Made by a program: the position numbers and the translations under genes. From Branchiostoma floridae (lineage: Eukaryota > Chordata > Leptocardii > Amphioxiformes > Branchiostomatidae): a DNA stretch of 64,000 nucleotides. This document shows positions 16,050 through 62,078 of the stretch, one piece after another. Numbering within the stretch: position 1 is the first letter of the stretch; every line of letters begins with the position of its first letter. The DNA lies in the NCBI RefSeq assembly GCF_000003815.2, contig NC_049996.1, forward strand, positions 9,973,844 to 10,037,843, given 5' to 3'. Below the pieces are notes generated by a model. That model did not search any database and was not told where the DNA came from. It saw only the letters and a list, made by a program, of their open reading frames with translations.

Positions 16050-17306
16050 ACTTTGACATGGCATAGTAGTCTGACTGACAAAAAGTGAACCGACAGGTTT
16101 AGACAAGTTTTTATCATGCAGATTAAATCACTGGTGCATCCGCTTTAGACTGCCTCTTACGCTGCTGACTCACAGTTGGGACTATTTTTCACAGAAGAAA
16201 TTCTGATCCCTGAGGAAGGTTTGCCAGGCAACATAGGAAGGTACAGTACTTTTCTTTCAATACAGGAATGCCTGTGCTACCAAGGCTAGTAAGAGCAGTT
16301 TTTTACACACTACCGGTAAAGGCCTTTTTACATTGAATGCTAAATCTTCTTTCAGTTAATAACGAGGAGGTAAAACCTCCTTGTTCTTAACTACAGAATA
16401 TTTTTCTCATAAGTTACTACAATTTACGTCAATTCAAAAGAATTGCTTATTTGAGTGAAAATTTAAGTATCATAGTATTACGTGTCAAGGAGAGGCATTA
16501 GTAATATGTAAGTGACCTGGTGAGTCTGAGTGCATTTCTGATGTTCATTTGGCTGATCGTCAATAGCTAAAATGTTACAGCCTGAGCATTTTCTTGACAC
16601 ATCGCAGGCACAAAACTGAAGGGACTCACTGAAATAGTGATTCTCTTTGTAGAAAGATAGCTCTGATATGTGGTCGAACAGGCATGGCTCTATTAGTTAC
16701 AGGAATTGCTAGTAATATAGACGCTTAAGCCTTAGGATTTCAGACCCAAACTACCTAAACGTCGCAATGGGACTCATATGTAACAGGTCACTGATCATAG
16801 TTACTGTAGTAAAAAGTAACAGTGGCATGCAGCTGGACGATGTATGCCCAAGGCACTGCCTTTAATTATCAACTTTCGGGTCACTGGACTTACACTAACA
16901 ATGCAATGATAAAGGGATTATATAAGATGTACAAGTCATTCTTAGGACAGAAAATAGCTTACATATACAACAAGAGTTCACATTTTGAGTCTTTGTAGAT
17001 TTAACTTTGTCTCATTGATTATGCAAATAAATCTGTAATTATCAGAATCTCTTTTATTTCTGATGGTTGTCTTTAGCAAAAAGAAATGCATTGCAAAGTC
17101 CTTTTATACAGCAGATTTCCATGTTTACTTTTTATCATGAATTATGCAAATGAATTTGGTATTAAAATAATCTAATATACATAGTGGTGCACACCTTAAA
17201 CTAGCTTATCACAAGTACGCAATTCCCACCATTTTGCTTGTTAATTGACTTTAAGGTTTTTTTTAATCATTACCTTACAGAGGAAACTGTTTCTATCTTT
17301 TTACAG
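16050..17306. other. Non-coding; probable upstream or intron sequence of GMDS
   Basis: No coding frame. It ends in a polypyrimidine tract and acceptor-like TTTTTACAG at 17298-17306 directly before the GMDS start. A second acceptor-like CCTTACAG ends at 17280. An upstream untranslated exon may therefore exist. Confidence 0.4.
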
Positions 17307-17313
17307 ATCAAGG

Positions 17314-18426
17314 ATGGAAAACAACAAGAGGCCCGAAGAAGTTGATGGCGAGTCAAAAGACAAACCGGGAAACAAAGTGGCCCTGATTACTGGCATCAGC
17401 GGACAGGACGGATCGTATCTGGCGGAGTTTCTACTAGAGAAGGGATACGAGGTCCACGGCATACTTCGAAGGGCCTCAACGTTTAACACAGGTCGGATTG
17501 TACATCTCTACGGCAATCCCCATACCCACACAGAATCCGGGAATTTCCACCTGCACTACGGAGACATGACTGACAGCACATGCCTCATGAAGGTCATCGC
17601 TGAGGTCCGCCCTGACGAGGTCTACAACCTGGCCGCGCAGAGTCACGTGAAAGTCTCGTTTGATCTCGCAGAATACACCGCAAACGTTGATGGTGTGGGC
17701 GTGCTACGAATTTTGGATGCCATACGGGCAACGGGCCTCTCAGACACCACCAAGTTCTATCAGGCATCGTCTAGTGAGATGTTTGGTTTGGTACAAGAGG
17801 TACCACAGAGAGAAACCACGCCATTTTACCCCAGATCCCCCTATGGAGCAGCCAAGCTGTACGCTTACTGGGTTGTGGTGAACTACAGGGAAGCCTACGA
17901 CATGTTTGCCTGTAACGGTATCCTCTTCAACCACGAGAGTCCGCGGAGGGGGGAAACGTTTGTCACCAGGAAGATCACCCGAGGGGTGGCCAAAATTCTG
18001 CTAGGTCAGCAAAACCACATTACACTGGGGAACCTGGATGCTAAAAGGGACTGGGGGCATGCAAAGGACTATGTCAAAGCCATGTGGCTGATGCTACAGC
18101 ATGAGAAACCAGAGGACTTTGTTATAGCCACAGGAACGTCATACAGCGTCAGGGAGTTTGTCGTTGCATCATTCAAGCATATCGGAGTAGATATCATATG
18201 GGAAGGTAACGGGCTGGAAGAGGTAGGCAAGGACAGATCAACTGGCACCGTACGGGTCAGAGTCTCCAAGAGATACTACAGGCCAGCAGAGGTGGAGTTC
18301 CTCCAAGGAGACAGCACAAAGGCCAGAAAAACACTCGGCTGGAAGCCGTCAGTTTCCTTTGAGGATCTTGTTGCTGAGATGGTGGATGCTGATATTGAGT
18401 TCATGAAAGCAAATCCTACTTCCTGA
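17314..18426 (+). CDS. GMDS: GDP-mannose 4,6-dehydratase, single-exon gene
   Basis: This enzyme converts GDP-D-mannose to GDP-4-keto-6-deoxymannose, the first step of de novo GDP-fucose synthesis in the cytosol. The protein is 370 aa, the usual length. It is a short-chain dehydrogenase/reductase: the NADP-binding TGISGQDG lies at residues 26-33, a Ser-Ser-Ser-Glu catalytic segment at about 152-155 (vertebrate enzymes have Ser-Thr-Ser-Glu), and the YxxxK pair at Tyr177 and Lys181 in [26 protein letters not shown] and [17 protein letters not shown] are family hallmarks. I chose the ATG at 17314 because the frame further upstream has no ATG and an acceptor-like site ends at 17306. The whole coding region is uninterrupted, whereas the human gene is split into many exons. 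No internal frame damage is visible and the coding region is richer in GC than its surroundings, so it looks functional. Confidence 0.95.
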
Positions 18427-22441: not shown

Positions 22442-25135
22442 TCAATAGTGGGGGAATATACATTTGCTTATACACATGCCAAATATTGCCATGATTTCTG
22501 TTATGTCACCATCTCCGAACCTGAGGAGATGGTGACCGGTTCCGTTATACGCGTACACATGAATGTCCCAGTGGTCGGCCACAGACAGGTTTCCACCCCG
22601 CCCTACCGTGACCAGTCCGGGGTACCCGTCCCCCCAACCCTGCTGCATCCTGAAACCGTTCCGCACCCTGAATTTGCGAACAACCGTGCCGCTCACATGC
22701 CTAACCGTTACCAGTAAATAGTCAGAATAGAACGTTACTTTTACACGACGATCGCCAAGTGCTTCCACCAAAATGCCAAGGCATGTATTGGTAGGCAGGA
22801 AGGGATGTAATGTTGAAGTGTCAAGCTCCTTCTTTGTGTACCTCACAATTAGCCCTGTAGCAGATGGGTAACAGTTCCCAATGCCCCATAGGCGGCCCCT
22901 CCCGCCGATGGAAATGTCGTCGGGATCTATCGCCTCGCACTCAGTCTCTGACGCGATGGTGGAAAAACTGCGGAGGCCTCTTGGGTCCAGTATTATGACC
23001 CGCCTGTTTGAGGCGCCAGACATATATACCTCTTTGCTAGGCGACGCGACAACACTACATTGTTCACGGAGCATTATTCCCGCTTCATGTTTCTTTCCGC
23101 CTACGGCACTTGTTGTTTCTTCGACTTCGCCTTGTTCTTTTCCTGAGAAAGAGTAAAATAGAAATATTGATCAATCTAGTTTGTTCTAAAGTGTTTTGTG
23201 TAGTTTTTTTGTGTGTTTTTGTGTGTTTTTTTAACCAGGAGGAATATCATTTTTCTGAACTGGAACAATTTATTATGCACAAGCTGATAGCATGAGGTTG
23301 CTTTTTATCGATCATCTTGCATGTTCTAGACATGTGCGCCTGTGAAGTGCGCCTGTGTATTACCTTCAGTGCTGGTTGGTTGAGGTGACGTGTAGTCCAA
23401 ATTGGGTGACGTGTAGTCCACATGATGTGACGTGTAGTCCACACGAGGTGACGTGTAGTCCACAAGTTGGCTTCCATCCGTTTGGGCTGTGAAGGTGGGG
23501 TTCGGCCATGTCTGACACAAAAACGAAAGTGTCGTTGGCAAAAAAAGTAGTAAAAGTGATCTCACACCAACTGACCACTAAGTGCGATCACTAACCACTG
23601 GACTACCCAAGCTACACTTGAGAGTGGAAACAATGAGATATGAGATTCATAGGAATACATAAGAATACACAAAGTTACTACTACATGTATCAAAATATAA
23701 TAGATAAAAAAACGATATACGTAATGTTTTTGTGCAATCGAAGTATATAACTTCTCACCGTTGGTGTGAAACTGTGTTGTTTTCCTGGTATGAAGGTTGA
23801 AATGAAGAGAGCTGTAAGAACAAACAGTCCTGCCACGGCTACTCCCATGATGATGGCACTAGCGTGCCTTTGACCTGGAAAAGAAAAACGGAAGGCAAAG
23901 ATGAGAAGAATTCTTCTACAATACACCGACACAAAATGTGGTAGATGCTATCTTTCTCTCTCCTTCTACCCCTCTCTAGAAAATGATGTTAGTGGCGTTT
24001 TATATCGTTGGTGACAAAAACGTATTCTGTTGGTAGAAACCTGTGAGAATAGAAACTAAATCATCAGTACAAAACCCTTGTTGTAGCGTCTGGAGTTGAA
24101 CTCAACAATACAAACCATCCGACCATCGCCAGCGACGGTAATTGACATGCAGGTATAGATAGAGACACAATGTTTCACAGCGTTGTTTTAGCAGAGTGAA
24201 GTACCAGTAACTCAAATGGAAGAACCTTGTTAACATGTCTTACCTCCACCTGCCTGTGGTTGCCGAACATTTGGGACGTAGGCTGGGTTGAGCGGTGACG
24301 CGTTCCCACTGTACATGGGGTTGAGAATTGACCCTACGGTAGATGTTTGGTTTCCACTATGCCCTTTATCTTCGTCATAAGTAACGGCGTATGGTTGAAT
24401 GTTAAGGCATCCCCTTCTTCACCAGTTGTCCTTCTAATTCTATTACCGTATTGGTTATAAGCGACTGCGTATGGACGGATACAGTCGTCATCAGACATAA
24501 CTTCACTCTCTGTTCTGTTCTGTCGAGAGCTTTCTACATCCTCCGACTGTTGGGTGACAGTTTCTGTTTGAACTTCATCATGACCGATGTTTTCGGCTTC
24601 ACTGTCTGCACCACAGACCCCGACATCTCGCTTGTCCATACTGGTATCGTCGACATCTTGACCGCATTGATAGAAGGTAGACACTGCTTCTTTGTGACAG
24701 GCACCCCTCAGTTGGTATTGCACTACGCTTTCTACGTTATCAACTTCAGTAACGTAGATGTGTTGTGACGGAGGTTCTTCCGCTTCTGATGGACTGCCAC
24801 TCATGGAGTATGGCAAGTCTACGCTCTCTGCGTTCTCAACTTCAGTACTGTAGATTTGTTTTGACGAGTGTTTCTCCGCTTCTATGAGTGGATTATCAAC
24901 ATAAAGTGCTTGATTCTGTTCAGTTTGACCAACGTGTGTATAAGAACTACAGCTTACCGGTAGCGATGGACGGTCTCCAATGTTGTCAGGACTGAAACAC
25001 GGTTCGTCAGCCTGGTTAGAGTGTTCAAACGAAGCGTCGCTACGGACGTCCGGTAACGGGTCTTCCGTGTGGCCGGGCGAGGCGTCCGTTTGTGCCGCTA
25101 GACTGGACCGGTATGAGCGGCGCTGGGGCTGAACC
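22442..25135 (-). pseudogene. Left NHL membrane-protein copy, 3' part (broken)
   Basis: Four exons match the intact paralogue at 33557-37722: 22442-23142 (propeller), 23364-23511 (DYTSP repeat stalk), 23759-23874 (membrane span, IIMGVAVAGLFVLTALFIS) and 24244-25135 (cytoplasmic region). Splice sites and phases agree with the paralogue. Damage visible: the first exon is cut at 25135 by a LINE; a one-base deletion near 24400 shifts frame, so the stretch homologous to IQPYAVTYD is read as FNHTPLLMT; exons 1 and 2 of the paralogue are fused with no intron between them; and the last propeller segment is deleted, leaving the shared end IFPHY. The cytoplasmic part also carries an internal duplication of the NPLIEAE...TEVENAESV segment (about 24740-24905). 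Confidence 0.8.
23385..23470 (-). repeat. 21-bp coding minisatellite (VDYTSP units), left copy
   Basis: Four units of GTGGACTACACGTCACCTC type, each encoding a (V/L)DYTS motif, within the stalk exon. The intact paralogue has six. Confidence 0.8.
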
Positions 25136-25150
25136 AGATGGCGGCCGTGA
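25136..25150 (+). promoter_or_regulatory. YY1-like initiator at the LINE 5' end
   Basis: The element starts AGATGGCGGCCG, matching the YY1 core ATGGCGGC. Human L1 is known to use a YY1 site at its 5' end to set the transcription start. Here the role is inferred from position and motif only. Confidence 0.4.
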
Positions 25151-25298
25151 CTAGACGTGCGTCGCGTGCGCTCCGTCAGTAGATCAATTTAGAGCGGTTT
25201 ATATGTGTTGCGGAGTGATATATACAAGTTACGTAGATTTCCGTACCAGATAAGATCATAGAGTTTGATATTTGAAGACATCTAACGTGTTTATCGCC

Positions 25299-27533
25299 AT
25301 GGGACGACCAAAAAATGCGACGGAGCTTGGGACGCCGGAGCCGCCGACGGAGACAAAGAGATACAGGACCCGGTCCGGCAGTACCAAGCCGTGGAACACA
25401 CCGGCGAAGAACATTACGGAGTTTGAACAGATCACCGAGGATCACGCAGATGCCGGTAAGACCACGGTATGTAGTCTCAAATTCCGAACCTCACCCGATC
25501 GTGTACCTCTCTGGATAAATGCTAACAAAGCGCACTTCAACTCGTCCTTCGAACATGAGACGGGATTCAAGTTTGCATGGAAGAACAAGGATACACAGCT
25601 GTCAGTTACGGACCTAAGTAAGTCAGCAGACAACAACAAAGTGCTGACTGTACATTTCTACACTACTACTGGCACGGTTCTCATACATGGGAAGGGTGCA
25701 AAATGGTATGTTGATGACATTTTCCCCGAACTGAAAGAAGCTGTCAATAATGCAGCTAGCGCGTCCTCGGGACAAAATGGCCGACTTGACAATGAAGAAC
25801 CGGAAAATAGAACAATAGACAACAACACTGAAACAATGGTGCCTAATTCAGAGGATGGGTCGTCCGCCATGATGGCATCGGACAGTAATTGTCATGAAAA
25901 CCAAGCTAAATCAGACCAGACTGCAACAGATTTGACCGTAGAAAAGGAAAATCACGCAGAGAATACAACACCTAAGTCTGTAGCCTCACCCACAATCCGC
26001 AAGGTGTTAGGTGGACTTGAGAACATTATTCTGAGTCCCTTCACTAAGACACGTGAATCTACAGGAAAGGGTAAAGAAGCGAAATCTCAGCAGTCCAACC
26101 GATCCCGACGCTCTCTACTCAGCGGAAACAGCCCTAACGACCCACCACCGAGTACAGGATACACAAGCGCTGCTGCTGAGGCCATGTATACAACACTAGT
26201 AGATGAGATGAACAAGCTAAAGACTCTTGTCTACAACAACAAGGTGACAATGGACAAGCAAAGTAGACAAATCGATGACCTGCAGGCTAGCCTTCAGAAT
26301 AAGAAGAAGGTCACAGAGAAGCAAGCCCAGCAACTTGAAAAGATGGAGATTGAACTCCAGGAGCAACGCCAAACCACAAAAGACCTCGCTGACAGACTAA
26401 GCTCCCGGGAAACAGACTACGAAACGCTACAAGCCCAGCTTTTGTCATTGACAAACCATACTCCATGTACAGACATATCTGCCAAACCGACAGATACTAG
26501 TAAGGAATCTCGGAAGGACGACTGCAGAATCCAACGCTTGTACTCCGACGTTGTCTCTGGACAAGCAAATTCGGTAGATAGCACAATCACTACAGTACCA
26601 AAACGACCAGCCTCCCCTGCCCCCCAGATATCGGCTCCGGTTGACAATAAGTCTGGCGAAAACACCACACTTCCAGTCACGACCGAAAGTACATGTACAA
26701 CAGGCCCAGCAGGCGACAAGAAGGACGTCAGGATTTTCGCAGATTCCCTGTGGAACGACGTCAACCCTGACAAAATGTATAGAGACAAGCGCACTAAAAT
26801 TGACAAAACAACAACATTACCCAAAGCTGTTGAAAGGATCAGAATGTCACCAGACACCACCACTGAACTTGTAATCATACATGTTGGCTCCAATGACTTG
26901 GCTAACACTAAAACACGACCGGACAGTATTGATGTATGTGTGGAACAAACGCGTAAACTAGTCCAATCGGCTAAAGCAGCCTACCCGAACGCCAAAATCG
27001 CCATGTCCCAGGTACTACCAAGAGGGACAGACATGCGCTCTAAGCTAAACTCTAACATAGCAACGTACAACTCTGTCGTCGAGAAGACTTGCTGCGAAGA
27101 CGATCAGCTGATCCATGTAAGGCACCGGCTCCTATCAGAAGACAGGTCTCTATACAAGGCCGATGGCATACATTTAAGACCTGGCGCAGGGGTGAGTCTG
27201 ATGGTAGCAGACGTTAAACGCACGCTGCGCCACTACCAAGGACCTGGGACTGACAGACAACGCATGGAACCAACCAGACAGAACACAAAGCCAGTGAGGA
27301 AAACACCGACACTGCAGAACAACAAGCTACACATACAGCCGCCTCCCATGCGACCACCCTTCAACCCTGCTGGATGTCAGCCACCACCTTTCCCGTGGAA
27401 CCCAGTACCCCCGCCGCCTCCCAAGTGGAACAACGGAAACCAACGGGCTGGAGCGACATGGAGTGCGTCACAAGACAAACGTCACATGGCAGAGAAGCTC
27501 GTGAACATGTTGACGGACTTTCTGAGATACTGA
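25299..27533 (+). CDS. LINE ORF1 protein with SGNH esterase domain
   Basis: 744 aa from the first ATG, in a good context (GCCATGG). Reading in order: a basic, Pro/Thr-rich start; a conserved-looking domain at about 60-150 containing PLWINANKAHFN and VLIHGKGAKWYVDDIFPEL; an acidic, polar linker; a coiled coil at about 300-395 (heptads such as LVDEMNKLKTLVYNN); an SGNH/GDSL hydrolase domain at about 475-635; and a Pro-rich, basic tail. The SGNH blocks are visible: FADS near 478 (nucleophile Ser), GSND near 528 and DGIH near 621. Esterase-bearing ORF1 proteins are known in CR1-group LINEs. Their role, perhaps membrane or particle association, is unsettled. No CCHC knuckle is seen. Confidence 0.9.
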   Translation: MGRPKNATELGTPEPPTETKRYRTRSGSTKPWNTPAKNITEFEQITEDHADAGKTTVCSLKFRTSPDRVPLWINANKAHFNSSFEHETGFKFAWKNKDTQLSVTDLSKSADNNKVLTVHFYTTTGTVLIHGKGAKWYVDDIFPELKEAVNNAASASSGQNGRLDNEEPENRTIDNNTETMVPNSEDGSSAMMASDSNCHENQAKSDQTATDLTVEKENHAENTTPKSVASPTIRKVLGGLENIILSPFTKTRESTGKGKEAKSQQSNRSRRSLLSGNSPNDPPPSTGYTSAAAEAMYTTLVDEMNKLKTLVYNNKVTMDKQSRQIDDLQASLQNKKKVTEKQAQQLEKMEIELQEQRQTTKDLADRLSSRETDYETLQAQLLSLTNHTPCTDISAKPTDTSKESRKDDCRIQRLYSDVVSGQANSVDSTITTVPKRPASPAPQISAPVDNKSGENTTLPVTTESTCTTGPAGDKKDVRIFADSLWNDVNPDKMYRDKRTKIDKTTTLPKAVERIRMSPDTTTELVIIHVGSNDLANTKTRPDSIDVCVEQTRKLVQSAKAAYPNAKIAMSQVLPRGTDMRSKLNSNIATYNSVVEKTCCEDDQLIHVRHRLLSEDRSLYKADGIHLRPGAGVSLMVADVKRTLRHYQGPGTDRQRMEPTRQNTKPVRKTPTLQNNKLHIQPPPMRPPFNPAGCQPPPFPWNPVPPPPPKWNNGNQRAGATWSASQDKRHMAEKLVNMLTDFLRY

Positions 27534-27805
27534 CTTAGAAATGCACATTAGATGCATATCGGACTAATCTGACTGAATCAGGTAACTAAATATCCCTTTC
27601 TTATTTTTCGACGCCAAACTTTCTCAACTATAATAGCCTAATTTGGACCTGATCCTAAAAATATAGAATACATATGTATACCTACTTGTGTAATGCCCCA
27701 TTGTTACGTTAATTTTGTATTGATACACTCCGCTCATATGTAACCATGCTCTAACTATTGTCTGTGATACCTCCGGCTTCCTAATTCGGCACCTTTGACC
27801 CAAGA

Positions 27806-30800
27806 ATGTCTATCCAAAAGGTAGCACTTAAGTTCTGTTCTTGGAACGTTCAAGGTGGTCTTAGGAGGAAATGTCAAGATGAAGAGTTCGTTTCTAGATT
27901 AGAAGAATATGATTTTGTTTGCCTCCAGGAGACCTGGCTCAAGCCAGGGGAAAAATGTAGAATAGAATCTTTTAATTATTTTAGAAGTGATAGGGATGTA
28001 AAAAAGACTGCCAAAAGAAGTTCAGGCGGGATAGTCATTATGTTCAAAAACAAACTCACCAAAGGTCTTACAAAACTACCATCTAAACACAAAGATATCC
28101 TCTGGTGTAAGTTAGATAAGATATTCTTTGGCCTAGAGCAAGATCTGTTTGTCGGCTGTGTGTATTTCTCTCCGGAAAACTCATCAAACCCAGAAGCGAA
28201 AAACAATTCCCTATTTGATATTGTACAAGATGACATATGCAAATTCTCAAATCAAGGTAATGTCATGCTGCTTGGTGATTTTAACGCCAGAACAGCGTCC
28301 CTTCAGGAAACAGTAATTGAAGATGATTGTCTAAACCACGACTCCATAGATCTAAAAGACACGCCTCAGAGATCGAGTTACGACAAAACAATTAATAGAT
28401 ACGGTAATAATTTAATTGACCTTTGTTCGGCAGCCAATCTTAATATCCTAAATGGCCGGGTCGCAGGAGACTTATCCGGTAAATTTACCTGCCACAAGTA
28501 TAATGGTTCAAGTGTGGTTGATTACTTCATTGTTAGCTCGGAATTTCTATCCAAAGTTCAGTATTTGAAAGTGAATGATCTCTCTGTGTTTTCAGACCAT
28601 TGTTTGTTGTCTTGTTCTATTTCCACAAATTATTCACCGTACATTAAGCAGGTTCAAATCCCAACACATCCTCTGCCAAATAAGTACATCTGGGATGAAG
28701 ACTCAAAAGTGAAATTCTCAGACGCGCTCCATGATCCATCAACATTGAATGACATACAAAAGTTTATGGATAAGTCATTCTGCAACGTAGAGAGTGTAGT
28801 AGAGGAATTTGCTGGCATTATCACACGTGTGGCCGACAAATCTTTAAGAAAAATCACTTTCAGGAACAAAAGAAGAAAGAAAAAGAAAAGTAAGCCATGG
28901 TACACTCCATCATGCGCCTCGCTGAAACGCAAAATCAATAACTTAGCTTCCCAATTTTCAAAATGTCCGTGGAGACTTGATGTCCGCCATACGTATTTTT
29001 GCAATCTAAAAGTCTACAAGAAGAAAATCAAAACAGAAAAAAGGCTTTTCAACGAAAGACAATGGCACAAACTAAGCAAACTCAGTAAAGAAAATCCTCA
29101 AAAGTTCTGGAGAGAATTAAAGCTACAAAAGCAGGATGAAAGTGATCAACAAGACATTGATGATAACATTAACCCCGAAGAGTGGAGAACCCACTTTAAA
29201 AATTTAAATGACCTCATTGAAAGTAGCAAATCCGATAAAGACTTTCACCAACATGTCTACAATGTAAGGCCTGAACTTGTCCAGACAGCTACCAAAAGCA
29301 CTGAAGCACACTCTGTGAGTAGCGACCCTGCAGACAACATTACAGACAACATTATCCACACGCTAGAAAAACTTACAGAAAAACCTCTAGATTTCGACAT
29401 TTCAAATGAAGAAATTTTGGAGGGGCTGCGTAAATTAAAATGCAGCAAAGCGTGTGGAACAGACTCCGTCATTAATGAAATGCTGAAATATGCCAATACA
29501 AAACTTATACCACCATTGCGAAAACTCTTTAATATAGTCCTTAACTCTGGATATTTCCCACACCAATGGAGTCAGAGCATTCTTGTTCCCATATACAAAA
29601 GTGGCAATCCATCGAATCCTTCAAATTACAGAGGAATTGCCATTTCTAGCTGTGTCGGAAAGTTGTTCACATCAGTACTCAGCAACCGTTTACAGCACTT
29701 CTTAGAAAACAACAACATTTTGTCCCCCTTTCAGTCTGGATTTCGAAAGGACTTTCGGACCAGTGATAACATCTTTGTGCTGAAATCTCTCATTGATAAA
29801 CAGTTATCTGTACCCGGCGGAAAATTATACACATGCTTTGTAGACTTCAGGAAAGCCTTTGATTCTGTGTGGAGAAAAGGTTTATTCTTCAAAGTCTTAT
29901 CGTCGGGTATAGGTGGTAATTTCTTCAACATTATACAATCAATGTACGATAATATAGAATATTGTGTGAAAACGTCTCACGGCCTTTCAGATTACTTTAG
30001 ATCTTCTTGCGGTGTACGACAGGGATGCAATCTAAGCCCACTCCTTTTTAATCTATTTGTTAATGATCTTCCAGACAGATTGTCATCACCATTATGCGAC
30101 CCTGTAATACTAAACGATACCCCCATAAGTAGCCTTCTCTGGGCTGATGACCTTGTGCTCATCTCAAAATCGGAAACGGGTCTGAAGCATTGCCTAGAAA
30201 GACTAGATAAATTTTGTTCTACTTGGAAACTATCGATCAATAGAGAAAAAACTAAAGTTATGATATTTTCAAAAAATGGGCGAGCTAACTATAATAAACG
30301 CTCCCCCTTTCAGTCACAAGGACAACCTATAAATTTCACAAACTTTTACACTTACCTAGGAGTAGACATCACACCATCAGGATCATTTCACCGTGCCAAT
30401 AAACAACTCAGAGTAAAAGCTATGCGAGCATCCTTTAAACTTAAATCATTGCTAGCATCAAATCATAATCCCTCGATATCTCTTGCCCTGGATTTATTCC
30501 AAAGCCTAGTCAAGCCGATCTTGCTCTACTGCGGGGAAATACTTGGAACAAACGCTCAAAGCAAAGAGCTCATCCTTAAAGGAATAAAGGAATATCCGAA
30601 TGAAAGTGTTAGGGATACAGTTTCAAACATCATTGCCCCGATACTGGGACCGAATGTAAATATACTTAAGGCTATCCGTGTTGGCAGGAAATATGATACA
30701 TCATCTACCCGTCCTGTTCTTGTTCGATTTAAGAAGTATACTGACAAATTGAATATTACATATCAATCAGACGCCCTGAGAAATCAGAACGTAACACTAG

Positions 30801-31216
30801 AGCAGCCTAATATTTCCTACGAGATTCCTGATCTAGAACATGTACTGCTTAACTACTGTAAGGTATTACTTAGTGTTCCTAGAAGTTCTGTTAACGCTGC
30901 TGTACTGGGCGAGCTAGGTGTGTTTCCACTGTATATAGACACCCAGACACGACTGATTAAATATTGGCTTAGATTACACAATATGTCTAATGATAGAATT
31001 GTGAAAAAAGCGTACGACACTGCTGTTGCTCAAGAACATGAATGGATTACACATGTACAAGATATACTATGCAGACATGGTTTCCAAAATATTTGGCTAA
31101 ACCCTAATGTCGATGCCAAATATTTTGGAAACATGTTCAAGGAACGCCTAAAGGACACATATCTTTCGAACTGGAGACAAAAGATAAGAAACTTTAGTAA
31201 ACTGGCAACATATTAG
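27806..31216 (+). CDS. LINE ORF2: endonuclease and reverse transcriptase
   Basis: 1136 aa. The N-terminal APE-type endonuclease (about 8-275) shows SWNVQGG, LQETW, GDFNAR and SDHCLLS. The reverse transcriptase (about 560-850) shows YRGIAISSCVGK, VDFRKAFDSVW, GVRQGCNLSPLLFNLF and WADDLVLIS, so both catalytic Asp are present. There is no RNase H. This layout is typical of the CR1/L2 group. The frame ends at TAG (31214-31216) in KLATY. The truncated LINE at 59.2 kb continues past the equivalent point (KLRSYRLFKSTY) for about 130 residues, including a CxxC...EDEHHF...C zinc motif. The C-terminal domain is therefore lost to a stop here, or lies out of frame in the adjacent gap. Confidence 0.92.
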   Translation: MSIQKVALKFCSWNVQGGLRRKCQDEEFVSRLEEYDFVCLQETWLKPGEKCRIESFNYFRSDRDVKKTAKRSSGGIVIMFKNKLTKGLTKLPSKHKDILWCKLDKIFFGLEQDLFVGCVYFSPENSSNPEAKNNSLFDIVQDDICKFSNQGNVMLLGDFNARTASLQETVIEDDCLNHDSIDLKDTPQRSSYDKTINRYGNNLIDLCSAANLNILNGRVAGDLSGKFTCHKYNGSSVVDYFIVSSEFLSKVQYLKVNDLSVFSDHCLLSCSISTNYSPYIKQVQIPTHPLPNKYIWDEDSKVKFSDALHDPSTLNDIQKFMDKSFCNVESVVEEFAGIITRVADKSLRKITFRNKRRKKKKSKPWYTPSCASLKRKINNLASQFSKCPWRLDVRHTYFCNLKVYKKKIKTEKRLFNERQWHKLSKLSKENPQKFWRELKLQKQDESDQQDIDDNINPEEWRTHFKNLNDLIESSKSDKDFHQHVYNVRPELVQTATKSTEAHSVSSDPADNITDNIIHTLEKLTEKPLDFDISNEEILEGLRKLKCSKACGTDSVINEMLKYANTKLIPPLRKLFNIVLNSGYFPHQWSQSILVPIYKSGNPSNPSNYRGIAISSCVGKLFTSVLSNRLQHFLENNNILSPFQSGFRKDFRTSDNIFVLKSLIDKQLSVPGGKLYTCFVDFRKAFDSVWRKGLFFKVLSSGIGGNFFNIIQSMYDNIEYCVKTSHGLSDYFRSSCGVRQGCNLSPLLFNLFVNDLPDRLSSPLCDPVILNDTPISSLLWADDLVLISKSETGLKHCLERLDKFCSTWKLSINREKTKVMIFSKNGRANYNKRSPFQSQGQPINFTNFYTYLGVDITPSGSFHRANKQLRVKAMRASFKLKSLLASNHNPSISLALDLFQSLVKPILLYCGEILGTNAQSKELILKGIKEYPNESVRDTVSNIIAPILGPNVNILKAIRVGRKYDTSSTRPVLVRFKKYTDKLNITYQSDALRNQNVTLEQPNISYEIPDLEHVLLNYCKVLLSVPRSSVNAAVLGELGVFPLYIDTQTRLIKYWLRLHNMSNDRIVKKAYDTAVAQEHEWITHVQDILCRHGFQNIWLNPNVDAKYFGNMFKERLKDTYLSNWRQKIRNFSKLATY

Positions 31217-31237
31217 ACGAAAATTTTTGGGTGAAGC

Positions 31238-31551
31238 NNNNNNNNNNNNNNNNNNNNNNNNNNNNNNNNNNNNNNNNNNNNNNNNNNNNNNNNNNNNNNN
31301 NNNNNNNNNNNNNNNNNNNNNNNNNNNNNNNNNNNNNNNNNNNNNNNNNNNNNNNNNNNNNNNNNNNNNNNNNNNNNNNNNNNNNNNNNNNNNNNNNNNN
31401 NNNNNNNNNNNNNNNNNNNNNNNNNNNNNNNNNNNNNNNNNNNNNNNNNNNNNNNNNNNNNNNNNNNNNNNNNNNNNNNNNNNNNNNNNNNNNNNNNNNN
31501 NNNNNNNNNNNNNNNNNNNNNNNNNNNNNNNNNNNNNNNNNNNNNNNNNNN
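31238..31551. other. Assembly gap (314 N)
   Basis: Run of N inside the LINE 3' region. Reading frames across it are meaningless. Confidence 0.99.
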
Positions 31552-31750
31552 AATATATATATAATGCTATGCAAAGAGAAAGTCGTGCTTGAAGTTTATC
31601 AATGTAAAATACACTATGCCGCCTTATTTTCTATTATGTTAGATTAGTATACTCATGTAGATAGTTCGTAGTTGCTAGTAATACATTTTACTTGCCATAC
31701 ATTGTACCTGATACAATCGTTGTGCAATAAACTTGACTTGACTTGACTTG

Positions 31751-31882
31751 TTGAACCACAGGTTCTGGTGTAGAGTCGGGGCAGTCACGGACATGAGACA
31801 GGTCTGCGTGTGCGGCCTGCATGTTGGTGGGTATGTCATAGCCGGTGCCACAGTCAGAGTCGTCAGTTGTTATTGGATCCAT
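31751..31882 (-). pseudogene. Left NHL membrane-protein copy, 5' part of exon 1
   Basis: ATG at 31882. The protein start (MDPITTDDSDCGTG...) matches the intact paralogue's start nearly residue for residue until 31751, where the LINE begins. It continues on the other side of the LINE at 25135. Any transcript from here would read into the antisense strand of the LINE. Confidence 0.85.
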
Positions 31883-33556: not shown

Positions 33557-36500
33557 TCAGTAATGTGGGAATATGGTGACCGTGCCGTTGTCATTATTAG
33601 TTACCACTAGCTGTCCACCCGGCGCTACTGCTACACTGTCAGCTCTGTGCAAGCCAGACGCGACCCGGCGAACGTACCGCCCGTCCTCGGTAAACAGTTC
33701 CACCTTCCCTCCTGGCCCGTCGGCTACAAGAACGTTACCGGAACTGTCCGTACACATCCCCGTGATTTTTCTCAGCAAATCGCCTCCAAACCTGAACAGG
33801 CAATGGCCGTTTTCGTTAAACGCGTATATATGATTAACTCTGCGATCGGACACAAAAAAGGTTTCAGTCCGTCCTACAGTGACCAGTCCACCGTAAGCCA
33901 CACCCGGCCCCATTCTGAACGTGTGAACAACAGTGCCGTTAAACTGCAGAACCGAAAGAAATGAAGAGGTAATGAAACGCTCTACTACTACGACACGACT
34001 GCGAAATGAGTCCACCGCCATGCTATGGAAGATATGTCCAGGCGGGTGTAATGTTGTTATGTGATGTCCCGTTTCTGTGTACCGAACAATGCGCTTTACA
34101 AGAGTCTGAAAACAGACCCCTATCACCCACAGATGGCCCTTCCCGTCGATAGAAACGTCTTCCGGAGCTATCGTCTCGCCTTTGTACTCTGGTGTCGTAA
34201 TCGGGAATTTCCGGAGGTAGACGCCCTTCATACTGAACACTTGAACCCCCCTGGCGTCAGCTACAAATATCTCGTTGCTAGGCGACACTACAACACCACC
34301 TAGCTCATCGAACATACCCGGTTCTTGTCCCTTTCCACCAAACACAATTATCGTCTGTTTCACCTCTTCGGTTTCTTTTCCTGAGAAAGAGAAAAATCAA
34401 AATATCGATCAATCTACTGTGAAGAGCGTTTCTTTAGCTTAGCATTTATAGTAGGAAAAAGCATCATTTGAACTGGCGTCGGGCGCTCCTACCAAGGTTT
34501 AAGGGCTGGTATCTCTGGTGATACGGAATACACCGTGTTTTATTCTATATGTACATGTTGCTGGGTTTGGACATTTGCTATCTATTCTAATGCGTGTGCG
34601 AAGTACATTGGTGTATTCCTTACCTTCAATAGTGCTGGTTGGTTGCGGTGACGTGTAATCCACAATAGGTGACGTGTAGTTCACCTGAGGTGACGTGTAG
34701 TCCACATGAGGTGGTGACGTGTAGTGCACATGCGGTGACGTGTAGTCCACACGAGGTGACGTGTAGTCCACATGTTGGCTTCCGTCCGTTTGAGCTGTGA
34801 AGGTGGGGTCCGGCAATGCCTGACACAAAAAAGAAAGCGTCGTTTACTTACTTGAAAAACCTGGGTAAAAAAGTGACCTCGAACAGGTTCAGCTTAGCAA
34901 CGAGACGTCTAGGTCCGGGGTAGGGGCGCTAACGCCATTTACTACGCACGCTACACTTGAGAATAGTGTAAAAGTACATCAATACACAACGTTACTGCTA
35001 TATATTGTTATGATATGTTATGTTATGTTATGTTATGTATCCGAATACAAATAACAATTACAAGTGGTACTGATGTTTGATTTGTTTACTATCGAAATGT
35101 ACAACTCACCGTTTGGGTGAAACTATCTTGCTTCCCTGTCCCTGCTCCCAAGAAGAAAGCTATAGAGATAATCAGTACTACATGTAGTACTGCAACAGCT
35201 ACACCTAAAATAATGAGGACGCTGACATTCGTTTGGCCTGGAAAGCAAAAAGGAAAAAAAACGGAGGTAAATAAAGCTTGTTCCAACTAGTTTACAACGT
35301 TACTCGAGGTGAACATAAGACAGACCAAGCCTGGGAAAGAATGGACTGGATGTATAGTCCTGTGGTTTACCAGCATTTCATTTCCCCCCTCGCGTATTAG
35401 TTTGTTGTCTCCAGCGGATTTCATCCATAGAATTAAGTCAGTGTGGTCTTATCTGATTGAAAAAGCATTGTGTTCCACGTCACTTGAGGATTACAGACAT
35501 TAAGTAACAAGAAAGGCAGTACTGCAAGCAAACACATGATATTGGCTACAAACTACTGCTCCATTTATATATTCTTATTCAGTCACATCCACATATATGG
35601 TGACCATCCCCTCTGTCCTACCACTTGCTACATGATGTAATCGAACTTCTACACATCCAGTAACCACGGTGACTGCCGCCTGGTCCAGGTCAGTCACCTT
35701 ATTTATTCGGAGAAGAAGAAGGGGGAGAAGAAAAGGGAGAAGAAACGGATCAAAAACAAAATTAGGTTCCTGAATTCGAAGGTTAACATAACTACGTTGA
35801 AGAACCTTATAAACGTATCTTACCTCTACCTGCCATTGGTTGTGCAGCATTTGGGACGTACACGGGGTTGGGAAGTAACGCGTTACCACTGTACATGGGG
35901 TTGGGAAGTAACGCGTTCCCGCTGTGCATGGGGTCGGGACGTCGTTCTTTTGCAGAAGCTATATCTAAAACATAAAACGTTTGGCCGTTATTAACGTCTA
36001 TATATATGGGTAATACTCGTCATGTCTTCTCTCGGTATAGTACTGTTAGCAGCCGGCAGGACATACAGTTGTATATTGCTACCTTTTCCCTATGTTAATT
36101 TCAGTGTATTTCGAAATCATGTTGTTTGTAACGGTTACTATGTTTATGTATGCATATGTACTCAGGGGCACCTGAAAAGCAGGCAGTAGCCTGAGTGTGT
36201 TTTCCTGATTAAATAACTAAATAAATGGATGGAAATGGACGGTATCACAGTGGTCAGATAGCGTTGGTTTATGTACTACGGGAAAGACATTTGCTATTGA
36301 TGGTCAAAATAGGGATCTAAGTAGTCCCACATTTTTGTCTTGCCAAATTTTGTCCGGGCACTGCCGGATGCCCCTCGGTTCTCAAAGGAGTAGGCCATGG
36401 CGTCCATTTGTTACCGGGTCCCGGGTTCATTTTAATTCCGACTTAAATTCAACCCGGTGCCCAACCGGGCCAAACATATCCCGGGAGTCGCAAGGTGTCC

Positions 36501-37722
36501 CACGGGGCCACGTCAGGGTCACGCCTTTAAATAAGTGTCAAAAACAGCCCGTGAACTGCCCAACAGTAGTCTCTACCAGACTGTGGGTCGCTGGAAAACC
36601 ATAGAAATGAAACAGAGGAGTAAGCCGGCCAGAGGAGTAAAGCCGGCTATACTCCTCTGTTTTACAGCGACTCGGAGTCTGGTAGAGACTAGCCCAACAG
36701 GACCCCTTTTTCCAATGCAGACTAAGCTTAATGATGGCTTCGTCACGAAAAGGGACACCTATTCGTTTTCATAAAGGATAATTGCCACATCAAATTTGTA
36801 TAATGTAATGATTCATCAGTTACTGATCAGTATGCTGTAAGTGGGTAGAATGTAACTTACCGGAACTGGTGTTGACTTGTCCACAGACACTCTGGAAGCT
36901 GTCGGCAGAGTGGTTTTCATAATGCCCTTCGCCTTCGTCATAAGTAACGGCGTATGGTTGGATGTCACAGGCATCTTCGTCACTTGTCCCTCTATGACCG
37001 TACTGGTTATAAGCGACTGCGTATGGACGGATACACTCGTCATCAGACGTAACTTCACTCTCTGTTCTGTTCTGACTAGAGCTTTCTACATCCTCCGACT
37101 GTTGGACGACAGTTTCTGTTTGAACTTCATCGTTTTCGGCTTTGCTGTCTGCATCACTGTCTTTGACATCTTGCCTGTCCGTACTGGAATCGTCGACATC
37201 TCGGTCGCATTGATAGCAGGTGGACAGTGCTTCTTTGTGACAGGAACCCCTCTGCTGGTATGCGTATTGCACTACGCTCTCTGCGTTCTCAACTTCAGTA
37301 CCGTAGATATGTTTTGACGGGGATTCTTCTGCTTCTACGAGTGGATTATCAACATAAAGCGCTTGATTATGTTCAGTGTCACTGACTTTATAAGAACTAC
37401 AGCTTACCGGTTGCGATGGGCGGTCTCCAAGGTTGTTAGGACTGATACACGGTCCTTCATCCTGGATAGAATGTTCAAACGAAGCGTCGTTACGGACGTC
37501 CGGTAACGGGTCTTCTGTGTGGCTGGGCGAGGCGTCCGTTTGTCCCGCTAGACTGGACCGGTATGAGCGGCGCTGGGGCTGAACCTCATGTTGAACCACA
37601 GGTTCTGGTGTAGAGTCAGGGCAGTCACGGACATGAGACAGGTCTGTGTGTGCGTCCTGTATGTTGGTGTGTATGTCAATCCCGGTGCCACAGTCAGAGT
37701 CGTCAGTTGTTATTGGATCCAT
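33557..37722 (-). CDS. Single-pass membrane protein with DYTSP-repeat stalk and NHL-type propeller
   Basis: Five exons with matching phases: 36861-37722, 35824-35964, 35110-35237, 34624-34819 and 33557-34380, giving 716 aa. No signal peptide. Residues 1-287 are acidic, Ser/Thr-rich and tyrosine-bearing (IRPYAVAYNQYG, IQPYAVTYDEG, and HYENH, which fits a pYxN Grb2-type site). Exon 2 carries a tandem PNPMYSGNALL-type repeat with two NPxY motifs (NPMY, NPVY). Exon 3 is a membrane span (VLIILGVAVAVLHVVLIISI). Exon 4 encodes six (V/H)xYTSP units. Exon 5 is an NHL-like six-bladed-type propeller (FGGKGQEPGMFDELGG..., FVADARGVQVF..., VLVADGPGGKVEL...). NxS/T sequons after the span (NYT, NGT) suggest that the propeller is outside the cell, a type II layout. 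NHL propellers bind proteins or RNA in TRIM2/3-like proteins. The function here is unknown; a receptor or adhesion role is inference. Confidence 0.85.
34640..34775 (-). repeat. 21-bp coding minisatellite (VDYTSP units), right copy
   Basis: Six units, one with an extra Pro codon. Copy number differs from the left paralogue (four), as expected of a length-variable stalk. Confidence 0.8.
36567..36691. mobile_element. MITE with 16-bp TIRs and a perfect 9-bp target duplication
   Basis: TAGTCTCTACCAGACT at 36567-36582 is the exact reverse complement of 36676-36691. GCCCAACAG flanks it directly on both sides (36558-36566 and 36692-36700). The interior is nearly palindromic (AACAGAGGAGTA / TACTCCTCTGTT). 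It lies in intron 1 of the intact NHL gene. A 9-bp duplication is typical of Mutator-like elements. Confidence 0.85.
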
Positions 37723-53475: not shown

Positions 53476-54235
53476 ATGGAGGTAATAATAATCCCCGAGG
53501 CAGATCATCAGTAGACCTGACAGGTTTGCCGGGAGGCTGAAATGTAATGTATCTGGGTCTGTTCCCCCATGAACAGTGGGAGAGAAGACGACTCGTACAT
53601 GTAGAGAACATGGCTGCAGGGTGAAATCCCACAGGAGTACGTCCTGTCAGCGTATAGAGGAATAGAGATGTTCAAAGAGTCTGATTTATCTACACCAATG
53701 GATGATTATTGTGGCTACAATTTGCACCATCTATTTGTAACCTTATCTGCCTACTTTAATTGATTAGGTCAGGTACATCCGTGTTTGCCCAAGCCAGGTA
53801 GATAAGCGCCATCTGGCGTGCCACAAAATATCTGCACTAACATCAACCGATTGGGCTATCAACTTTTCATGTACAGGACTAGAATACAATATCTAAGACG
53901 CATACACGCATACTTGTCCTTAACAGGGCAAAGCTGTATCATTGAATATATGTATAACCTGATGTTTATCTGTGAGTCTTTGAGGTAACGGTTAGATAAT
54001 CGTTGGAAAATCGTCTTCGAAAAGAAACGTTCACAATGTACCCCCAAGGAAAATGCGTTTTGAACGTAATCCTGGAAGAAAAACGTAAAGCAGCTGGACA
54101 TTATGAAGACAATAAAGCGTATTTTCTAGTGATTCTCAAAAGAATGCAAAATGTGAGACACAAACTCGAGCATGATAAATTCTTATATTTATAATGCCCA
54201 TTGCCATTTTGTTCTCTTTCAAAGGTGACGAAGTC

Positions 54236-56270
54236 ATGACGTCATTCAACATCAGAGTCCCGCGGACCGTGGATGACGTCAGCCTCCCCTGGTTACAACA
54301 GGTCCTCAACGCTCACAACTCCAGGGTCAACGTCACTGATGTCGTCATCACCGGACCCATGAGCCAGGCACAGGGCTCAATCAGCTCAATACTGGCTGTG
54401 GTCGCCAGGGGGACAGAGGACTCTAAGAACGAGCATTACGACCTGGCTGTTAAAATTACCAAAGTTGAAGAAGACGTTTCAAAGAAAGTTGTAACTTTAG
54501 AGGAAAGGGAGGTCTCGTTTTATTCCAGCGCAGTACCTGACTTGTATTCCGTTCTTCGTGTACAGAATTTAGATAGTAAACAAAGCATAGACACAGACCA
54601 TAATTGTTGTAAATGTCTCTTTTCTGTAGTGTCTTTACCGGTACCGATGTGCTATTTCGCAGCTAGTGACCAAAGTTCAATGATGTCAGTCAGAGTCCTT
54701 GAGAACTTAGAGTCTCGAGGGTTTGCCGTCAAACCCTTTCCGGAACCTTTTAGTCTAGAAGAAACAATAGTAGCTGTACGTGCGCTTGCACAAATCCATG
54801 GACTATCACACCTCATAGAGCATAGGACAGGTACACCTTTATCTGAGAGGTATAACTGGCTAAGGGACACGGCTAAAGAACGGGCGACTTCACGGCACCA
54901 TGAGCGGTACGCAGAAGGGGTGAAGGCGTTTGCCTCGGCGTTTCCAGAGCACACAGACCTGGCGGCGCGGCTGGGACGGCTGACGGCGGAGGTGCTGTTC
55001 AAGGGGCGGGAGGGCACGGCGGGAACTCCGAGGGTCCTGTGTCACGGTGACTGCTGGAACGATAACATCATGTTCAAGGTACTGGGAAAGTCATCAAACA
55101 TTCTTTTGAAATCAGTGAACTCAGTAGACCGCGCTAGCGCTGACCCTACTATGTAGAACTTATTTGATGGTTTCAGACCTCAAATGTATGGAACAGAACA
55201 CTCGCGCACAGGCCATATTTGGTTCAGAACCGAGCTCGATCGAACACCAGAGTGTATATCATCTGTAAGGCATTTACAAGAATCTTTTTAATATCGTTTA
55301 CAGCTATTTTTTAGGAAAATAACTGAAACTTTGTACAGAAAATGTAGACTGCCAGGTGATGCTGTAAAGAAAGATTCCTACAGAACGATTTGGTACATCA
55401 TTGTTGGATGTTTAACGAGAAAGTTGGCAACTGATTGATATCATATGGTTGATATAATATCATCCACAAAGCTATATTTCTAGACTTAGTACTCAAGAAA
55501 GATTCATTTTCTTCCTCCCCCACCTCCTCCCAAAAGTACGACCATGGCGTCCCTGTATCAGCGATGTTACTAGACTGGCAGCACGCCTGCTACAGACGGC
55601 CCACCTATGACCTGGCCTGCCTGCTGGTGTACACGACCACACGGGAACTCCGCCACACTCACACTGACGACATCCTGTACCACTATCATCAACAACTACA
55701 GCACACGCTGGGGACAAATGGTGAGATATATGGCATGGAAATATCCAGGCATCATTATTTGCGCTTCTACGGCATGTCTCCTCTTACAATAAAAAACGAG
55801 ATGCTAAAAATCTAGTCAAAGTGATCTGCCAAGAGTTGAACTATGGATAAAGAAGACACTCTTCGTTGTGTGTTTTAAAACCATAGATTCAGAATTATAT
55901 GCTAACTCTCATGATGATCTTATACAGGACATTATTAAATAAAAGAAGTCTAAGAATAGGACTTTCTCGTACATGGGACTGCCAAATAACGCAATTAGGT
56001 AGATATAGTGAAAAATATGTAAAAAAAATAAAAGTGATGGAAGAGTTTGCTACTTCTCCGTTTAACAGAGCTCAATTCTTTCATCTTTTCCTTATACCAG
56101 AAGACACCAGACTGAGGTCCTACACCCTAGCAGACCTGAGAGCGGACCTGCGAGCTGACTTCATCTGTCCCGTGGCGCGGTGGCTGATGGGATCGTGGGC
56201 CCACCCCCTTCATCAGTACCCCCAGCTGTTACAGTGTGTGGAGGACATCAGGGACTGGGGGGTGGTGTAG
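54236..56270 (+). CDS. EcKinase / CHK kinase-like protein
   Basis: Exons 54236-55078, 55537-55720 and 56101-56270 join in phase (0, then 1) to 398 aa. The ATG at 54236 lies 12 bases after an acceptor (TCTTTCAAAG), so a 5' UTR exon probably precedes it. The fold is that of aminoglycoside/choline-type kinases. VLCHGDCWNDNIMF is the Brenner loop with catalytic Asp and metal-binding Asn (around residue 270), and LLDWQHACYRRPTYDLA, coded by exon 2, is the metal-binding DxD-like block. EcKinases phosphorylate small molecules, including ecdysteroids in insects; the substrate here is unknown. A segment at 54558-54629 looks like a retained 72-bp intron (donor CGTGTAC, acceptor TTTTCTGTAG). Removing it keeps frame and gives SVLLSLPVPMCYF, closer to the family, and 374 aa. 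Confidence 0.82.
55191..55248 (+). repeat. Dispersed 58-bp repeat, copy 1
   Basis: GAACAGAACACTCGCGCACA and onward is nearly identical to 61685-61742 (four differences). It lies in intron 1 of the EcKinase gene. Confidence 0.75.
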
Positions 56271-60073: not shown

Positions 60074-62046
60074 GAAGGGCAGTGTCAGGTGTCGTAGTGT
60101 TCATACTGCATGAAACTTGCGTGCAAGTCTCGTACAATCCGCTAGTCGGTGTTGTAATTGCCCCACAGCATTTGTGCATTGCCCACAATTCATAAATGGT
60201 CATCATTCGAAAAACTATGCAGCAACAACATAAAGTCGTGCCGGCAGAAAATGTTGAAAAGCATTAAGAACAACTTGCGCCACGTTTTGTGTACTTAAAG
60301 TAATGTGACTTCAAGTGAATATGTACGCTGTGATATAAGATTTATACTGTAGAAAAACAATGCGAAAAGTGGTTATTTGTTTAGGAAGTATTTAAAAAAA
60401 CATGGAACCATTTCAGTGTTTCTGTGTCTATTTTCAATCAATTAATTAATTAAGACATTTATGTCTGGAAAAATAAGGCACAACCAGGTAGACGTTTTAT
60501 CTAAAGCAGTCACCTTGAGTATGACATCACATTTATAGATATGAATTATTGATATGATTGCGTGCTTGTGCTGGCGTTACCACGTCATGTTATCATATCA
60601 TTTTATTAGTAACGGCAGTTTTATATAGCAGGCACAAAATTTCATAGGGGCCAGGCTAGCTCTTACAGGTAAGGGTGGCGATCTTGCTGTTGTTTAACGC
60701 ATTTAATATCTAATTCTAGGTGTTTTTGCTAAAACTCTTGTGTAAGGCGAAGTTGAGAAAAATGTCAATCCATCTTGTAACGGTTGAGAATTGTGCTGAG
60801 AGAAAAATTTTCATGTAACAACAGAAGGACAAATGGGAACCAGCTTTCATTAGGCGAGCAAGTTTGACCTGTTAGAAATTCTAGTGTTTGTTTATGTTCT
60901 AAGGTATCAAAACATTTCCCACTAAGCTAGAAAGCTGCAATTCTAGTTATGTGTACGTGTAGCTTTTTCTTGTAATGACTTTTTTATTGTGACATTGTAA
61001 AGAAATACTTAACGTTAGGGGCTTACTTTTCTTTTCAAATCCGCCATGGTCATTATGTGGTGTCAGTGTGCTGTAGTTGGATTTGTAGCGTTAACATATT
61101 GAGGTGTTTTGAGGTGTTATAATTTGCGTACTTCAACCTGCCGTCGCACGTGTGTTAATCAACAGAACTATCATGTTACACACCTTACTTACGTACGTGC
61201 AGCGACGTAGAACGTCAAACAACAGGAGGGGTGAAGGGGCGTGTGCAGGCTATTCACCCTGTTTGTGTAGGGCGCTAATAGACCTGGGAGTATTGCCTAG
61301 GTGACGGACTGATGTCACTCAGTTCTAGGAAGAGGAAGGTTTCCTTTTCGGAAAGGAAGTCGTTAAAACAGTAGATTTGGCGGACTGTAAGAATCTCTTG
61401 GAAACTTAAAGGTGTATGGATGTCTTCGGGGGCCTCCTTGAGGTGTTCTCGCTTTGGTGACCTTGACAAGGTTAAAGAGGTTTGTGTATCTTTGTGTTAG
61501 AAACGAGAACATTTTCGAGGTTTGTTTTGTAGATACGGAATTACAAATAGACTTCGCTTCCTGTATTGCGGGAGGGGATCTCCCTTGCTGTTCCCGTGTG
61601 TGTAATGAACTAAACATGACAAAACAATGCCCATATTTGTGCACCAGGAAGTTTGTGTCCTTCAAGTTGTATGACGAACGTATCGAACAGAACACTCGCG
61701 CACAGACCGTATTTGGTTCAGAACCAAGCTCTATCGAACACCGACCGTCGAATCGAATTCAGTTTCTGCCCTAATAACTGGCAGGCCCGCCATTTCTAAC
61801 GTTTGTTTGTTGTATGTGACCAGCTTTGGACACGCCCATTTGTAAGTTCAATGTCATAAATAACTGTTCAGCCTTGTTAATCTTGATTGTAATGGCATTC
61901 AAGTGCCTACGTGTTGGGGGTAAGTACATGTGGTAGAGAATTTTCGTTTACACACAACGGTTAACGGTCGTTAGACAATTTACAACAGCCATATATTTCA
62001 CCTTCAAGTGTCGTACTGGTAAAGCTTTGTTTGTTTCTTTCTACAG
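60074..62046. other. Upstream region of the LRR gene
   Basis: No gene. The frame at 61454-61774 includes the dispersed repeat below. An acceptor-like TTTCTTTCTACAG ends at 62046, so an upstream 5' UTR exon of the LRR gene may lie here. Confidence 0.35.
61685..61742 (+). repeat. Dispersed 58-bp repeat, copy 2
   Basis: Near-identical to 55191-55248. Both copies keep the same open frame, EQNTRAQxxFGSEPSSIEH. Confidence 0.75.
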
Positions 62047-62078
62047 TTTGTCATTTGAAGTGGACCAAGAGTGAAAGT

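Follow-up and report, generated by a model that had tools for sequence, protein, structure and literature searches.

An intact amphioxus gene of an expanded family predicted to join an NHL propeller to a membrane span and an NPxY-bearing tail

Several described protein groups combine a propeller with a single membrane span. The low-density lipoprotein receptor (LDLR) is a type I protein with one span, a YWTD propeller outside the cell and NPxY inside, and the strictosidine-synthase-like proteins of the APMAP and hemomucin type are single-pass type II proteins with a six-bladed propeller. A first-pass annotation of the DNA studied here described NHL propellers as known mostly in cytosolic TRIM/RING proteins; this needs qualification, as teneurins, a group of type II membrane proteins, are known to have an extracellular six-bladed NHL propeller (PMC6297184). 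A survey of TRIM proteins discusses Branchiostoma TRIMs with MATH domains, and the part of its text available does not mention a membrane NHL protein (PMC3503706). Here we analyse a stretch of 64,000 nucleotides from Branchiostoma floridae (NC_049996.1, positions 9,973,844 to 10,037,843 of the forward strand; below, the window) and a gene within it, g1, which is an intact member of an expanded, duplicated family of predicted single-pass membrane proteins with an NHL propeller.

The g1 gene lies on the minus strand (37722-33557) and, rebuilt from the DNA, its five exons encode 716 amino acids with a single terminal stop. All four introns have a GT donor and an AG acceptor, and the exon end phases of 1, 1, 0 and 1 agree throughout, as the first-pass annotation had proposed. 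From the N- to the C-terminus the product consists of an acidic tail, two NPxY motifs, one strong membrane span, a stalk of YTSP-type units and the NHL propeller. Exon 1 (36861..37722, minus strand like the other four) holds the start codon and the cytosolic-type tail with two PYAVxY motifs, ALYVDN and YEN, while exon 2 (35824..35964) encodes the juxtamembrane region with NPMY and NPVY. The span is in exon 3 (35110..35237), at about 35226-35143. Exon 4 (34624..34819) encodes the stalk; self-matches place a repeat in it at about 34774-34644, and its six YTSP-type units were read from the translation. Exon 5 (33557..34380) contains the propeller and the stop codon. An in-frame stop stands upstream of the start codon, and the exon 1 frame matches zero Pfam families at E <= 1 and has no RING or B-box, although an extra exon may be spliced on from farther upstream. 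Intron 1 contains an inverted repeat (36567-36691, 66% over 140 columns), possibly a small transposon relic.

Sequence searches confirm the propeller that the first-pass annotation had read in exon 5. The exon scores 45.1 bits against Pfam NHL (cut-off 20) in three stretches, with SGL likewise above its cut-off, and phmmer against PDB returns the NHL domains of Brat (E 4e-17), TRIM2 (2e-16) and TRIM71 (7e-15), as well as Thin and TRIM3. Foldseek with a weak model of the propeller ranks the TRIM2 NHL domain first, and the best matches are NHL structures at TM scores of 0.62-0.67. No Pfam match to the YWTD propeller model was found in exon 5, and none to EGF in exons 1 and 5, the two exons covered by that scan. 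No YD-repeat/Rhs core follows the propeller, the stop codon at 33557 lying directly 3' of it.

Residues 339-366 form one strong hydrophobic span, with a mean Kyte-Doolittle (KD) hydropathy of 3.05 in a 19-residue window (next best elsewhere 1.23). A span had been proposed here, and a topology prediction with no span and a cytosolic propeller had been named as evidence against the proposal. In the hydropathy scan the N-terminus is hydrophilic, has no hydrophobic stretch and is not signal-peptide-like. The two NPxY motifs noted earlier are both in exon 2, beside the span; 0.058 are expected, and two or more were seen in only 0.17% of 20,000 shuffles of the tail. The tail had also been called tyrosine-rich. 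The amount is only moderate, 15 Tyr in the 338 residues of the N-terminal part (4.4%), but among residue types present more than once in the g1 tail Tyr is the best conserved (mean column identity 0.57), and 0.95 of the other tail rows keep tyrosines 140 and 155. The stalk varies in length, as had been claimed, from one to six YTSP-type units among the copies: six in g1, four in the neighbouring copy g2, five in a third copy on C18, and one each in the C7 and C5 copies (YSSP in the latter).

NHL matches number at least 150 in the genome to which the window belongs (513,431,437 bases), where 150 of 1680 candidates were scored. A search with the g1 tail of exon 1 gives 43 genome matches, which we group into 22 loci spread over nine contigs; two of the loci lie inside the window. 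At all 22 a propeller lies downstream on the same strand, which bears out the suspected expansion by duplication. The distance from tail to propeller is 2.2-5.4 kb for 21 loci, and the 22nd, g2, was read directly; the propellers of 20 loci come from the genome propeller search and that of the C5 locus was placed separately. Two propellers (52% and 44% identity) have no tail match, namely C258:33943, which has a stop, and C9:17782039. Twelve loci were read, g1, g2 and ten fetched ones (L039-L048), and in 12 of 12 the NPxY motifs, the hydrophobic span (KD 2.42-3.35) and the propeller follow in the identical order. Each of the ten fetched loci shows 2-5 NPxY in its exon-2 frame, part of the L048 count perhaps coming from sequence outside the exon, and the L047 propeller is incomplete, reaching the end of the fetched stretch. 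In trees, the 12 propellers form one clade, with support 100/99 when 11 NHL propellers from elsewhere in the genome are included and 100/97 when 21 are. With 11 outgroups the nearest rows are two NHL genes that have no span, L005 and L006, the latter from a large cluster on C17; with 21 the order of the groups is not settled.

Each 15-residue flank of the g1 span has one Lys/Arg, with two acidic residues on the C side and none on the N side. The N side carries the more positive net charge at 4 of the 12 family loci, with 8 tied, and at 7 of the 8 spanned NHL loci examined outside the family, with one tied; the reverse is seen in neither group. Combined over 20 loci, N-in is thus favoured 11 times, tied 9 times and N-out never. 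The family propellers also carry 37 NxS/T sequons against 19.1 +/- 4.0 in shuffles (P 0.001), compared to 5 against 7.9 in seven span-less NHL genes and 2 against 6.0 in four spanned genes of a RING-type cluster on C15. Two sites recur, the first (N-G-T/S) in 10/12 propellers and the second (N-x-T) in 9/11, the latter being absent from g1 and L039. Both are absent from all 11 RING, coiled-coil and other rows, and among ten further multi-exon NHL loci two have the first and four the second. Because the flank charge favours N-in in 11 of 20 loci with 9 tied, and because the clade is enriched in propeller sequons, a type II orientation, with the N-terminus inside and the propeller luminal or extracellular, is likely for the family. 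Not all spanned NHL proteins share this excess of sequons, as both the C15 cluster and the ten multi-exon loci are below shuffles, and we rejected it as a general mark of such proteins.

In general, NPxY and phosphotyrosine-type (pY-type) motifs can bind phosphotyrosine-binding (PTB) or SH2 domains, and NPxY is also a known sorting signal. Motifs were counted in 20 tail segments, g2 left out; the segments end at BLAST match ends, with some C-terminal motifs lost, and the excesses over shuffles include shared descent. Shuffles give 0.16 PYA[VA], 1.65 LYx[DEK] and 1.6 YEN, where the tail segments have 38, 23 and 7, respectively; YxN overall is found 13 times against 16.6. YxxPhi (17 against 35.7) and the immunoreceptor tyrosine-based inhibitory motif (ITIM-like, 2 against 6.9) are both below shuffles, and neither has a site in the g1 tail, so both were rejected as tail signals. 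These counts bear on the membrane in which the protein would reside. A type II protein of the endoplasmic reticulum, Golgi or endosome could use NPxY and the other tail motifs for sorting, with the propeller acting on luminal cargo; this would suit the role of NPxY in sorting, and the sequence data do not separate plasma from internal membranes. The many pY-type motifs beyond NPxY, the variable length of the YTSP stalk and the deficit of YxxPhi sorting motifs do not fit such a resident protein well, and we consider it rather unlikely.

We suggest instead, with moderate confidence, that g1 is an intact type II NHL receptor of an expanded family with an adaptor-docking tail. The N-terminal tail of about 340 residues would face the cytosol, and the C-terminal propeller would be held on its stalk in the lumen or outside the cell, where it may bind a protein or glycan partner. 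The repeated juxtamembrane NPxY motifs would recruit PTB-domain adaptors for uptake or signalling. The conserved tail tyrosines (in PYAVxY and ALYVDN, and in some members YEN) could be phosphorylated and dock SH2 adaptors. The sequences themselves establish the gene model, the architecture, the family, the recurrence of the motifs and the mosaic divergence described below; topology, surface location, phosphorylation, ligand and signalling are what we infer.

Several observations weigh against the receptor proposal. The AlphaFold2 model of the propeller, made from a two-sequence alignment, is weak (mean predicted local distance difference test 57.3, predicted template modelling score 0.64). The first-pass annotation had proposed a pYxN-type site, which finds no support in g1 or its closest copies: YxN occurs once against 0.80 expected, i.e., at chance level, and only 0.11 of the other tail rows keep Tyr 268, that of YEN, so we rejected YxN as a conserved g1 site. 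The exon-1 ratio of nonsynonymous to synonymous divergence (dN/dS) between close copies is near neutral, 0.77-1.05 in three pairs and about 0.6-1.1 in ten, and strong constraint on the whole tail is therefore not supported among them. The earlier argument from propeller-side sequons to a type II protein fails for g1 alone, with three sequons N-side and three C-side of the span (one straddling the border uncounted), and the g1 count was rejected as proof of topology; the argument holds only for the enriched family propellers. Sequons are depleted in the propellers of the ten further multi-exon NHL loci (9 against 20.1 in shuffles), and in the tails they slightly exceed the shuffled expectation (over 20 loci, 68 against 54.3, P 0.027; over the 11 loci with the propeller seen, 31 against 27.8). 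As the rows compared are relatives, sequon P values and motif counts overstate significance.

Some of these points would suit the opposite topology, in which a cytosolic propeller, like that of TRIM-NHL proteins, serves as a membrane-anchored RNA- or substrate-binding module, with the acidic tail luminal. The close relatives with solved structures are all NHL domains of the TRIM/Brat type, the g1 tail has 10 Cys and 3 sequons, where the C-terminal part has 3 Cys, and the ten other multi-exon loci are sequon-poor on the propeller. However, this orientation is at odds with a flank charge that in no locus favours N-out, with an N-terminus that does not resemble a signal peptide, with NPxY and tyrosine motifs on the N side of the span, and with family propellers enriched at two sequon sites that are empty in the 11 RING, coiled-coil and other relatives. 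We regard it as improbable.

The second family locus of the window, g2, is also on the minus strand and is broken. Its first exon starts at 31882 and its first piece (31749..31882) ends where a plus-strand long interspersed nuclear element (LINE, 25136..31748) breaks codon 45; the gene resumes at 25135. We infer the limits of the LINE from where the g2 alignment breaks off, and a run of N covers 31238-31551. Its frames between stops are 754 and 1143 amino acids long, the second with RVT_1 and an endonuclease domain; no clear target-site duplication was seen by eye. The first long frame contains a GDSL-lipase-like domain. The second piece of g2 exon 1 (24243..25135) is additionally frameshifted and runs without intron 1 into exon 2, with NPMY and NPAY. 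There follow exon 3 with the span (23759..23874), exon 4 with a stalk of four units (23364..23511) and exon 5 (22442..23142), an open frame with a short propeller of the C7/C5 type that gives no Pfam NHL match. The short propeller and the missing intron 1 might be taken for private decay, which we rejected, as both are common to the C7 and C5 loci; the g2 propeller also clusters with theirs with support 100/100 in both trees.

The state of g2 raises the question whether the family consists mostly of pseudogenes, or whether g1 itself is decayed or mis-joined, with exon 5 taken from another transcript. Besides the LINE and frameshift in g2, there are stops inside the tail matches at C16:14733553 and C6:1325141 and inside the propeller matches at C11:7880787, and the tail of the C7 locus is read in two frames. 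However, g1 is open throughout with intact splice sites, and the same exon order was found on nine contigs. All 10 pairs compared give a propeller dN/dS of 0.50-0.70; the propellers are constrained, and overall positive selection on them was not seen. An explanation by decay is thus very improbable.

The copies are mosaics in their divergence. Between g1 and g2, DNA identity is 88% in exons 1-2 (805/913 aligned bases) and 62% in exon 5 (413/667), while introns 2-4 are alignable in short blocks only. Synonymous divergence in exon 1 and exon 5 was compared for six pairs of a long- with a short-propeller copy and four pairs within a type. Between types, the respective values are 0.143 and 0.787 for g1-g2, 0.194 and 0.790 for g1-L040, 0.230 and 0.822 for g1-L041, 0.092 and 0.732 for g2-L039, 0.139 and 0.672 for L039-L040, and 0.177 and 0.748 for L039-L041. 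The contrast is milder within types, with 0.036 and 0.102 for g1-L039, 0.165 and 0.266 for g2-L040, 0.227 and 0.405 for g2-L041, and 0.313 and 0.487 for L040-L041. Since exon 1 is far less diverged than exon 5 between types, these sequences indicate that copies have swapped propeller exons with one another, or else that their tails have been homogenised. As propellers diverge and tails stay alike, differing recognition heads would feed a common signalling tail.

It can be speculated that several dozen type II NHL receptors, with varying propellers and a small shared set of phosphotyrosine tails kept alike by gene conversion, form an undescribed innate-recognition or cell-identity system in which NHL heads replace immunoglobulin or leucine-rich-repeat ones; we hold this as a tentative, rather doubtful possibility. 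If the receptor proposal itself holds, the NHL domain, studied mostly as an RNA- and substrate-binding module of cytosolic ubiquitin ligases, would become an extracellular recognition head, set on NPxY and pY-type tails in a multi-copy family. The family offers a defined setting for studying how receptors with such an unusual head diversify in a chordate genome.

There appear to be more membrane-anchored NHL proteins with tyrosine-motif tails than those of the 22 loci, because eight of ten further loci have a span and several of these have such tails. Outside the clade, 37 further listed rows have propeller frames of 270-345 amino acids (a by-eye count, two unpaired propellers set aside), of which ten, hand-picked, were read. 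An upstream span is present in L053-L058, L060 and L062; none was seen in L059, and L061 is unreadable through a run of N. PYAVxY tails occur in L060, which also has NPMY, and in L062, which has an NPNVMY variant. In L062, a Thr/Ser-rich frame between span and propeller (2328-2837) is possibly a mucin-like stalk. In tail frames upstream of a span and an NHL propeller, tandem YEN/YDN arrays were seen in L054 (C19:11.23 Mb), L056 (C12:17.29 Mb) and L057 (C204), with 9, 10 and 5 in one frame; the counts for L054 and L056 are of YEN. Motifs of the YEN/YDN type are Grb2-SH2-type motifs. At C15:20.70-20.716 Mb, three NHL genes of a single exon, L007, L051 and L052, have a hydrophobic span immediately ahead of the propeller (KD 2.23, 2.82 and 2.51). 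By Pfam, L007 and L051 also have RING and B-box and are possible membrane-spanning TRIM-NHL ligases, and the N-terminus of L052 is masked; their neighbours L050 (KD 1.87) and L049 (1.32) have weaker spans. Long open frames with NHL matches are densely clustered at C17:18.3-18.97 Mb, and the sole member read, L006, has no RING, B-box or span.

Elsewhere in the window, a GDP-mannose 4,6-dehydratase occupies one uninterrupted frame at 17245-18426 (E 4e-157) and looks intronless. An ecdysteroid-kinase-like frame is found at 54179-55156 and a leucine-rich-repeat frame with LRRNT at 61965-62930.

In comparison with known systems, what appears new here is an arrangement and copy number of known domains for which we found no description in the open-access literature searched, where the g1-type family likewise did not appear; such predicted genes may sit unnamed in annotation databases. 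TRIM-NHL proteins (TRIM2, TRIM3, TRIM71 and Brat; TRIM subfamily C) share the same propeller family, by sequence and by Foldseek with the weak model, and are the likely source of the g1 propeller; g1 differs in having no RING or B-box in exon 1, but a span, an NPxY exon and a stalk. With teneurins it would share an NHL propeller outside a type II protein, an orientation favoured, not proven, in g1; however, g1 ends right after the propeller, leaving no room for a YD-repeat/Rhs part, and exons 1 and 5 have no EGF match. APMAP and hemomucin-type proteins are alike as type II single-pass proteins with a propeller, which belongs to another propeller family, and we know of no comparable tyrosine tail in them. 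The LDL receptor family is similar in how the parts would work only: a propeller outside, a single span and, in g1, two NPxY on the inferred cytosolic side, here with no YWTD match, no signal-peptide-like N-terminus and the order of domains reversed.

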